Below, one piece after another: positions 7,521 to 36,493 of a DNA stretch of 64,000 bases. Both the position numbers and the translations under genes were made by a program. A model generated the notes under the pieces. It was not told where the DNA came from. It saw only the letters and a list, made by a program, of their open reading frames with translations, and did not search any database. Position 1 is the first letter of the stretch; every line of letters starts with the position of its first letter. This DNA comes from Pseudalkalibacillus berkeleyi (GTDB taxonomy: Bacteria > Bacillota > Bacilli > Bacillales > Fictibacillaceae), in the NCBI RefSeq assembly GCF_021608225.1, contig NZ_JAKIJS010000001.1, forward strand, positions 1,178,001 through 1,242,000, read 5' to 3'.

Positions 7521-8018
7521 ATGGAACAATACTTAGATTTGTGCCGTCACATACTAGAAAATGGCACAAAGAAGGATGATCGAACAGGAACTGGAACAGT
7601 GAGTGTTTTCGGTTATCAAATGAGGTTCGATCTACAAAAAGGCTTCCCGATGATTACAACCAAGAAGTTGCATCTAAAATCTATCATTCATGAGTTGCTT
7701 TGGTTTCTAAATGGAGATACGAACGTGAAATATCTTCAAGATCATGGCGTCCGTATTTGGAATGAATGGGCAGATGAAAAGGGAGATTTAGGACCTGTCT
7801 ACGGAAAACAATGGCGTTCTTGGTCAAAACCAGATGGCGGGACAGTTGATCAGATTACGAGAGTTGTCGAAGAAATTAAGAAGAATCCTGACTCAAGAAG
7901 ACTGGTTGTCAATGCATGGAATGCAGGGGAACTAGATGAAATGGCACTCACACCTTGTCATTGCCTCTTCCAGTTCTATGTAAACGACGGTAAGTTATCG
8001 TGTCAGTTGTATCAGCGT
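7521..8018 (+). CDS. thyA: Thymidylate synthase, exon 1 (codons 1-166)
   Basis: The first 166 codons of a ThyA-type thymidylate synthase, ending at the CGT codon for Arg166. Visible parts are the dUMP-binding Arg near [18 protein letters not shown], and the catalytic Cys146 in [10 protein letters not shown]; numbering matches E. coli ThyA. A TAA follows directly (8019-8021), but it belongs to the intron. Joined to exon 2 (8288-8584) the product is 264 residues, the normal length. The enzyme makes dTMP from dUMP using methylene-THF, giving dihydrofolate for the DHFR encoded next door. RBS: AGAGGGATATC. Confidence 0.93.
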
Positions 8019-8287
8019 TAACATATGAGCGCCTTTACAGAGTAATCTGTATCGAAAACTCTACTAAACGGGGAAACTCTCTATGGAGACAATCCCGTGC
8101 TAAACTTCCAGAGACAAGGAAGTAATGCCGAACGACTAGAGCTTTATGCTCGTAAGGTGTAAGCGGTTGACACCTGAAACGTAGAGCATCCTGTTATTAG
8201 GATGATGATATAGTCTAATCTGCATGGTGACATGCAGCAGTTCATAAGAGAACGGGTTATGCGTAGCGAGCATAATTGAATATCATG
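8019..8287 (+). ncRNA. Group I self-splicing intron in thyA
   Basis: This 269-nt insert splits a conserved codon run (QLYQR / SADTFLG). It shows group I core elements: a P-like stretch near 8091-8104 (AATCCCGTGCTAAA), an R element GAACGACTAGAG near 8129-8141, and an S element GATATAGTCTAATC near 8207-8220. Exon GCGU before the 5' splice site pairs with GCGC at 8029-8032, giving the expected U-G wobble at the cut, and the intron ends in G. After the core, CTGCATG/CATGCAG closes a GTGA tetraloop (8220-8237), a P9-type stem. No homing endonuclease frame fits inside. Splicing restores a 264-residue enzyme. Confidence 0.9.
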
Positions 8288-30577: not shown

Positions 30578-31846
30578 TTGTCAGTAATGGATCAAAAATA
30601 TACCTTGTTATTACAACGTTACAAGCAAATACGAGGATTCTCAAAACAAATTGTATCTCCATTAGAGGTTGAAGATTTCGTCATTCAATCCATTCCAGAT
30701 GTTAGTCCTCCAAAATGGCACCTTGCCCATACTACATGGTTTTTTGAGACGTTTATCTTAATTCCATATGCGGATCATTACGATAGGTTTAATGATAAAT
30801 ATGATTACCTATTCAATTCCTACTACGAAACACACGGCAAACCGTATCCTAGACATGCAAGGGGATTGCTCGCAAGACCGTCAGTGAATGAAATCATAAA
30901 ATACCGAGAATATGTTGATGGACACATCAGTGATTTACTTGAAGATGGCAGCGAAGAATTATGTAAGCAAATAGAACCGATCCTAGAAATTGGCTTACAT
31001 CATGAACAGCAACATCAAGAATTATTGATTACTGATATAAAGTATAACTTCTTCATTAATCCACTACGGCCAGCTTATCATGACCAAAAAAATGTATCCT
31101 ATCATCCAGTTCCTCGCTTTGATTGGATTCATTTTGAAGAAGGGATCGTTGAAACAGGACATTCAGCAAAAGGATTTTCATTTGATAATGAAAGACCTGT
31201 CCATAAATCATGGGTAGACGATTTTGCAATCGCGAATAGACCTGTTACAAATGGTGAGTTTATTCACTTTATCAACGAGGGTGGCTATGAAAAGCCAGAG
31301 TTCTGGCTATCTGAGGGCTGGTCTATTGTGAAAGAAGAACAGTGGAAGTCACCCCTTTATTGGGAAAAGAATGAAGGAGACTGGTATACGTTTACCCTAA
31401 CAGGCATGCAGAAGGTAAACGAAAACGAACCGGTCACACATATTAGCTTCTACGAAGCGGATGCTTATGCACGGTGGGCTGGCTTCAGACTTCCAACAGA
31501 AACGGAATGGGAGCATGCTATGAAAGACGCTAGCCTACAAGGTAATATGGCTGATCGTAGTTTATTCCATCCGAATGATCAATATGAAAATAGTGATTCC
31601 AACTTCTATAAAACGTATGGAGATGTTTGGGAATGGACCTCTAGTCCATATGTACCTTATCCTAGATCTAAACCACTTGAAGGTACACTCGGTGAATATA
31701 ATGCGAAATTCATGTGCAATCAAATGGTGTTGAGAGGTGGTTCTTGTGCGACTCACTCCACACATATGAGGCTTACTTATCGAAATTTCTTTCATCCAGG
31801 AAAAAGATGGCAATTTAGTGGATTACGCTTAGCTAAGGATTTATAA
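30578..31846 (+). CDS. egtB: EgtB-like sulfoxide synthase (ergothioneine biosynthesis)
   Basis: A 422-residue protein with a DinB-like helical domain (iron ligands expected at His51 in HLAHTTWFFE and His142/His146 in HHEQQHQE) and a C-terminal FGE-sulfatase domain (FRLPTETEWEHAM, GDVWEWTSSPY, GGSCATHSTHMRLTYRNFF). This layout defines EgtB, which joins a thiol to hercynine with O2. The start is TTG 30578 behind AAAGGGGAG. No egtD methyltransferase or other pathway gene is adjacent, so the pathway is unproven here; selenoneine-type SenA enzymes share the fold. Confidence 0.82.
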   Translation: MSVMDQKYTLLLQRYKQIRGFSKQIVSPLEVEDFVIQSIPDVSPPKWHLAHTTWFFETFILIPYADHYDRFNDKYDYLFNSYYETHGKPYPRHARGLLARPSVNEIIKYREYVDGHISDLLEDGSEELCKQIEPILEIGLHHEQQHQELLITDIKYNFFINPLRPAYHDQKNVSYHPVPRFDWIHFEEGIVETGHSAKGFSFDNERPVHKSWVDDFAIANRPVTNGEFIHFINEGGYEKPEFWLSEGWSIVKEEQWKSPLYWEKNEGDWYTFTLTGMQKVNENEPVTHISFYEADAYARWAGFRLPTETEWEHAMKDASLQGNMADRSLFHPNDQYENSDSNFYKTYGDVWEWTSSPYVPYPRSKPLEGTLGEYNAKFMCNQMVLRGGSCATHSTHMRLTYRNFFHPGKRWQFSGLRLAKDL

Positions 31847-35616: not shown

Positions 35617-35663
35617 TTATTGATTGTTAGGTACCAAACCAAATTATTGAAAGAGGTGAAAAC

Positions 35664-36401
35664 ATGATTGAAAAAGTAGAAAAAGCTGTACAAGAAAGAT
35701 GGGTTCCTTCATTTAAATACGAGAGAAACGAAACGAGTGTGTTTACTCGGTTAAATAAACCTCTTGAACAATCCAAAGGAGTAATCATAACAACTGGTGG
35801 CGTTTATGTTAAAGGCCAGCCTCCGTTTCAAGATCATTACGGCTTGGGTGACCCTTCTTACCGAGAAATCAAGCACGACGTTAGCTATGATCAACTTTCT
35901 ATAGCCCATGAGCATTATGATCACACGAAGGCTAATGAAGATCGAAATGTTGTTTTCCCTTTAGAGATTTTGAAGCATTTAAGTGAGGAAGGGACAATCG
36001 GTTCAATTGCAGATGTACATTATTCGTTTATGGGATATGTCCCTATCCCACATCCGTTAAAGAAGGTTACTGCAAAAGAAGTTGCAGAGAAACTACAGCT
36101 TCAACAAGTAGATTTCGCCATACTCGTTCCTTCCTGACCGATTTGTCAACAGACGGCCGGTCTGGTCGCTAGAACGATTGAAGAATACGATATTCCGACG
36201 GTTACATTAACGATGGCAAAAGAAATTGCCGAATTGGTAAAACCACCTCGTTCTTTATATTCACGATTTCCTTTCGGAAGTCCACTTGGACAACCTAAGA
36301 ATATTGAACAACAAAAGAACGTTCTTAAATCGGCGATCAATCTTTTAACTGATGTTAATGAGGCAGGAACCATAGTAGATTCAAACATTTCATACAAATA
36401 A
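35664..36401 (+). CDS. GrdB-related selenoprotein (UGA at codon 158 read as Sec)
   Basis: From ATG 35664 (site AAAGAGGTG) 157 codons are open, then TGA 36135-36137, then 87 more codons to TAA 36399-36401: 245 residues with Sec. The N-terminal half (GVYVKGQPPFQDHYGLGDPSYREI) and C-terminal half (IPTVTLTMAKEI, FPFGSPLGQP) both match the glycine/sarcosine/betaine reductase selenoprotein B family, and the TGA falls at its Sec site, VPS-U-PICQQ (UxxC). No other Grd subunits are nearby, so substrate reduction by a true glycine reductase is unlikely; a stand-alone oxidoreductase is more plausible. Confidence 0.88.
36138..36164 (+). promoter_or_regulatory. Bacterial SECIS-like hairpin for the GrdB-related selenoprotein
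   Basis: CAGAC (36150-36154) pairs with GTCTG (36160-36164) around the loop GGCCG. The loop begins 17 nt after the UGA and starts with G, both expected for a bacterial SECIS element. The stem is short, so it is weaker than the one in the glutaredoxin gene. Confidence 0.65.
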
Positions 36402-36438: not shown

Positions 36439-36493
36439 TGGTATAATTGAATTGGAGTAGCTGAAATATCAGTTACTCCTATTTCATTTTTTT
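36439..36493 (+). promoter_or_regulatory. Extended -10 promoter followed by a leader hairpin before the DUF502 gene
   Basis: TG-G-TATAAT (36439-36447) is an extended -10 element with no good -35. Starting about 6-8 nt later, GGAGTAGCTGA pairs with TCAGTTACTCC (36453-36479) and is followed by T-rich DNA directly before the GGAGGT ribosome site. It may end upstream transcripts, attenuate the DUF502 message, or protect its 5' end. Confidence 0.55.

Follow-up and report, generated by a model that had tools for sequence, protein, structure and literature searches.

The gene at positions 35664-36401 (forward strand) of the window, i.e., of the whole stretch of 64,000 nucleotides from Pseudalkalibacillus berkeleyi that was analyzed, is predicted to encode a selenoprotein of 245 residues that is translated through an in-frame UGA at codon 158 and that belongs to the PrdB/GrdB superfamily. 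The host genome encodes neither a pyruvoyl subunit of the kind on which PrdB and GrdB depend nor GrdA, and the reading preferred here, to which we assign a probability of roughly 0.55, is that this partner-less protein of 26-27 kDa uses the pair Sec158-x-x-Cys161 alone as a selenol/thiol redox centre.

Reading frame and conservation of the UGA codon

The reading frame starts with the ATG at 35664, preceded by the Shine-Dalgarno-like sequence AAAGAGGTGA (35650-35659, forward strand, read directly), and comprises 157 codons, the TGA at 36135-36137, 87 further codons and the TAA at 36399-36401. An intrinsic-terminator-like hairpin with 11 pairs, a consensus match only, follows at 36454-36479 on the same strand. 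The UGA opens a UxxC motif within the sequence P-S-U-P-I-C, and the cysteine of the motif, Cys161 (TGT, 36144-36146, forward strand), is an invariant alignment column. The stretches before and after the TGA were found to match the PrdB model TIGR04483 of NCBIfam separately (1.4e-25 and 1.6e-10, respectively), so the frame downstream of the TGA is not a product of chance, which bears out the initial annotation of 157 and 87 codons with family features on both sides of a TGA. Compared with a 64%-identical relative, dN/dS is ~0.11 before and ~0.16 after the UGA, with synonymous sites near saturation; as judged from these ratios, purifying selection acts on both sides.

As a natural control, 397 genomes of the order were surveyed, and the tables of matches and of tRNA-Sec were joined by hand. 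Relatives are present in 57 of these genomes, 54 of which carry an in-frame TGA, a number that includes two full-length GrdB (G224, G239) and one fragment (G317), and tRNA-Sec scores over the cut-off in 52 of the 54. The genome G065 has the TGA form and no tRNA-Sec over the cut-off, and as it encodes SelB (374 bits) the tRNA was probably lost from the draft assembly. In a Gottfriedia genome (G278) devoid of SelB and tRNA-Sec, frame changes and a TAA disrupt the TGA copy. Cysteine forms occur in 3/57 genomes (G047, G180, G296), all without SelB and tRNA-Sec; these are genuine PrdB proteins, adjoining PrdA (877 bits) and PrdC. GTDB genomes were also searched with patterns chosen so as not to include the Sec codon, which yielded 18 loci, and TGA was read in 16/16 loci intact in the read region, including bins of Chloroflexi, Binatota and 'Lambdaproteobacteria'. 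TGA is therefore found in all intact relatives from Sec-decoding genomes: the comparison of UGA with its possible exchange for a cysteine codon came out in favor of selenocysteine, and the case in which all homologues stop at codon 157 is excluded by the read-through relatives. Two PrdB-like genes from genomes of different families, L072:1447-2253 (G150) and L073:1450-2256 (G386), contain two in-frame TGAs nine bases apart and read UPIU where their close relatives L065-L067 read UPIC, possibly a diselenide motif.

SECIS-like hairpin and selenocysteine machinery

A SECIS-like hairpin is located at 36150-36164 (forward strand), 17 nt after the UGA, with the 5-bp stem CAGAC/GTCTG (36150-36154/36160-36164) and the loop GGCCG (36155-36159). 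It satisfies the bacterial SECIS rules, which ask for a loop of 3-9 nt with G in the first two loop positions, a stem of 4-16 bp, a spacing of 16-37 nt and an energy of <= -7.5 (PMC13188914). From 27 relatives of the subfamilies here termed groups A, B and D, RNAalifold chose the same five pairs (columns 16-20 with 26-30), i.e., the hairpin with a G-first loop that had been noticed initially. Compensatory exchanges between G-C and A-U and between U-A and A-U occur across subfamilies, and two-sided changes in the pairs were counted in 17 cells vs. 5.4 expected from shuffles, a count that is inflated by relatedness and from which groups C, E and F were left out because they do not have this helix register. 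In the next-nearest clade one stem pair is a U.U mismatch, which weakens the helix. In the window sequence alone the hairpin is not the minimum-energy fold (z = -1.24), and the same five pairs arise in 5.4% of synonymous recodings, so that its support comes from conservation.

The host encodes a complete machinery for selenocysteine, namely SelB (353 bits, cut-off 242), tRNA-Sec with UCA anticodon (59.9 bits, cut-off 47), SelA (556 bits) and SelD (420 bits), the latter with its own in-frame TGA in the motif SSKGGUG; the refuting case of a host without Sec machinery is therefore disposed of. All these genes lie in one region of contig C1 (1.094-1.104 Mb), ~112-120 kb from the window gene. This region (L014:9079-18938) encodes tRNA-Sec, a serine recombinase, SelB, a GT4 glycosyltransferase whose gene overlaps the end of selB, a PhnDEC-type transporter with a sub-threshold match to a putative selenate-binding model, Sec-SelD and SelA. 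Family searches of the host genome found no Sec formate dehydrogenase over the cut-off and none with a TGA. As GrdA, GrdB and genuine PrdB are likewise missing, the window protein and SelD are the sole recognized host selenoproteins among the families tried. Taken together, homology and selection on both sides of the UGA, the conserved hairpin and the machinery uphold the initial annotation as a selenoprotein.

A link to selenoneine was considered and rejected. The window gene at 30578-31846 (forward strand), an EgtB-like gene of ergothioneine biosynthesis in a Bacillus-type genome, scores 562 bits with the EgtB model TIGR03440 and only 335 with SenA (cut-off 420), and with the SenB model the GT4 gene that follows selB reaches 88 bits, far short of the threshold of 300. 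At the Rfam gathering threshold, the whole window contains nothing besides a group I intron at 8009-8237 (forward strand, RF00028, 89 bits).

Placement in the PrdB/GrdB superfamily

The read-through product scores 146.5 bits with the PrdB model TIGR04483 (E 8e-43, residues 24-240 alignable), which is far under the equivalog cut-off of 300 bits, while a genuine PrdB of the same order, used as control, reaches 468.7 bits. GrdB-type models of NCBIfam give about 54-61 bits. The part before the TGA matches PF07355 with 45.7 bits (E 7e-12), passing the gathering cut-off of 22. The protein had initially been called GrdB-related; the nearest family, however, is PrdB and not GrdB (146.5 vs. 58-61 bits). 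In a maximum-likelihood tree the window gene falls into a Bacillales clade with the motif PS-U-P-x-C-Q-Q (support 100/99), to which a wider set (96/94) adds free-standing Cys proteins of Haematobacter and Roseomonas, and it lies outside the clade of PrdB proteins encoded together with prdA; several branches are long, so the deep joins are uncertain. The alphaproteobacterial Cys-type relatives keep CxxC, and no prd genes are found beside them. On plasmid p546-2 of Roseomonas haemaphysalidis (L097:4911-7296) the Cys-type PrdB-like gene faces an adjacent selO, encoding a protein adenylyltransferase.

AlphaFold2 predicts a single confident domain that includes the part after the UGA (pLDDT 93.3, pTM 0.91), in which Sec158 connects strand 151-155 to helix 159-174. 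Foldseek and VIA-align revealed no convincing relative among solved structures, the best VIA-align Z of 8.3 to a LacI core being within the usual background, and neither a PDB sequence search (no true relative) nor a phage search (no match) with the window protein added to this. The Pfam model Thioredoxin_3 matched sub-threshold, and there was no thioredoxin among the fold-search matches listed. The alignment of relatives shows the invariant polar residues D63, D93, E173 and R196 and the near-invariant H82/Y85. All of these residues suggest a dedicated small-molecule pocket, which would argue against a generic thiol reductase.

Absence of the pyruvoyl partner

In the established PrdB/GrdB reaction a Schiff base is formed, followed by attack of the selenocysteine. 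The pyruvoyl partner is covered by PF09338, which comprises GrdE and also recognizes PrdA (1.3e-26). A profile search found no PF09338 protein in the host genome, and GrdA is absent there as well, while a positive control for GrdA was found in the genus (G030). This agrees with the initial description of a stand-alone gene without Grd partners: neither GrdA nor GrdE/PrdA is encoded anywhere in the genome. PF09338 is absent from 55 of 62 tested genomes with relatives, and the seven that have it are exactly those with a full GrdB or a genuine prdA-prdB pair. Both absences show the lack of a partner to be real and to hold throughout the branch, within the limits of draft genomes. Without a pyruvoyl subunit the known PrdB/GrdB reaction is unavailable and, as judged from gene content, the window protein cannot perform the reaction after which PrdB is named. 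In line with the different role suggested initially, a function outside Stickland fermentation is likely in this Bacillus-type host.

It is conceivable, though unlikely, that the protein nevertheless cleaves C-N (or C-halogen) bonds in the manner of D-proline reductase, via a pyruvoyl partner unrelated in sequence or by direct attack of the selenocysteine. Homology to PrdB extends over nearly the whole length, the strictly conserved residues resemble a pocket, and the superfamily can accept new substrates such as fluoroacetate (PMC10838667). On the other hand, wherever a PF09338 gene was found among the tested relatives it accompanied full GrdB or genuine PrdB; in addition, the window protein does not fall into the clade of genuine PrdB, and no prdC/prdD or amino-acid genes are adjacent.

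Gene neighborhoods and proposed function

In the window the selenoprotein gene is flanked, as initially annotated, by an upstream aldo/keto reductase (PF00248, 34786-35616, forward strand), which is possibly co-transcribed, and by a downstream DUF502 membrane protein (PF04367, 36492-37112, forward strand) past the terminator. The presence of these neighbors was confirmed, their value as a functional clue was not. Both neighbors are shared only with the sister species Rossellomorea aquimaris, where the aldo/keto reductase lies 73 nt upstream as against 47 nt in the window, and in R. aquimaris an inserted ABC-transporter block already parts DUF502 from the selenoprotein gene. The comparison of homologue neighborhoods that the initial annotation had proposed thus found no conservation outside the sister species, the neighbors say little on function, and they were rejected as partners. 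Elsewhere the neighbors differ, and genus g24, the largest clade, has the gene in the orientation opposite to that of its flanking genes.

The sister subfamilies are more informative. In three genomes from different families (G065, G247, G336), group F genes lie 36-51 nt downstream of a peroxiredoxin gene whose peroxidatic residue is encoded by TGA (TPVU); the two-gene units are L091:886-2118, L090:10260-11491 and L076:3382-4674. Some genomes have a group D gene next to an FAD pyridine nucleotide-disulfide oxidoreductase and/or rhodanese proteins. In four genomes (L065-L067, L073), the start of the group E gene is overlapped or directly adjoined by the gene for a ~100-aa protein (SLPYLKEAI...).

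A partner-free thiol/selenol oxidoreductase is favored by two considerations: the UxxC motif is the remaining common element, and the sister subfamilies stand beside a Sec-peroxiredoxin, an FAD disulfide oxidoreductase and rhodanese proteins. As no gene consistently adjoins the window's own subfamily, the redox role is based on these sister subfamilies and on UxxC. Mechanistically, the Sec158-Cys161 pair, which follows a beta strand and opens a helix in the confident AlphaFold2 model, would act by attack of the Sec158 selenolate on a substrate that is oxidized or electrophilic, such as a peroxide, disulfide or persulfide; Cys161 would resolve the intermediate by forming a selenenylsulfide, and the pair would be regenerated by a cellular thiol or disulfide reductase. 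More tentatively, groups A-F might form a distinct class of Sec-dependent oxidoreductases in Bacillota and other phyla that act in defence against peroxide or reactive sulfur, some paired with a Sec-peroxiredoxin; the pyruvoyl-dependent amino-acid reductases would then be one specialized branch of the superfamily.

Somewhat less probable still than C-N cleavage is a role in selenium/sulfur handling, for example in supplying SelD by carrying or reducing selenite, selenenyl or persulfide species. The group D members beside rhodanese proteins would fit such a role, as would a group C paralogue of G030 (L011) that adjoins Sec-selD and a PhnDEC-type transporter, suggesting a selenium-related cluster. 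However, the window gene lies ~112 kb from selD, most relatives are not near sel genes, and Cys forms persist without SelB, though those are genuine PrdB. That the UGA is a true stop, leaving a truncated or decaying protein of 157 residues, is highly improbable: automatic annotation would end there and the hairpin does not appear as the minimum-energy fold when the sequence is taken singly, but homology and purifying selection run on to the distal stop, relatives from many families retain TGA at this codon, the host has the full Sec machinery and the one broken copy found is in a genome without that machinery.

Significance and comparison with known systems

According to a recent review, aerobic bacteria rarely keep selenocysteine (PMC13188914). 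Many Bacillales retain the whole Sec apparatus plus a PrdB-like protein that is unable to do its namesake reaction, and the function of the window protein would help to explain why the host bacteria pay for selenocysteine. Selenoproteins counted as 'proline reductase' in ocean and soil data may carry the wrong label. The review, from 2026, describes the TIGR04483 entry as D-proline reductase only (PMC13188914). The initial annotation spoke of an undescribed role. The UxxC family of PrdB type is itself already known and abundant, being among the most numerous selenoprotein families in the Sargasso Sea and GOS metagenomes, and the available parts of these reports do not describe a partner-less state or a function (PMC1088965, PMC2398784). 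The partner-less branch is an undescribed variant of a known family; a search that largely left subscription journals outside found no published account of it in Bacillales or of the peroxiredoxin-PrdB-like pair.

With PrdB the window protein shares a length of ~240 aa and UxxC at the equivalent place, and it differs in its motif (UPICQQ vs. UGTCHR) and in the missing PrdA-type partner. GrdB, GrdF and GrdH (TIGR01917, TIGR01918, PF07355) share the superfamily PF07355 and Sec at the equivalent position. In contrast, GrdB is ~430 aa long with UxxCxxC, while the window protein has 245 aa and UPICQQT, without the N-terminal 190-220 residues and the third Cys; it scores 58-61 bits vs. 602 (TIGR01917) and 65 (TIGR01918), and neither GrdA nor GrdE accompanies it. 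The alphaproteobacterial plasmid proteins of Haematobacter and Roseomonas, annotated as 'glycine/sarcosine/betaine reductase selenoprotein B family protein', group with the branch of the window protein in the tree (96/94), are free-standing and have P-x-C, but they contain Cys instead of Sec, are ~300 aa long and have a long tree branch. The 'PrdB' of the Sargasso Sea and GOS data resembles the window protein as a UxxC selenoprotein family common in the surface ocean, for which no prd operon or partner is mentioned in the accessible parts of the reports (PMC1088965, PMC2398784); it consists of metagenomic reads and is set beside the window protein by description only.
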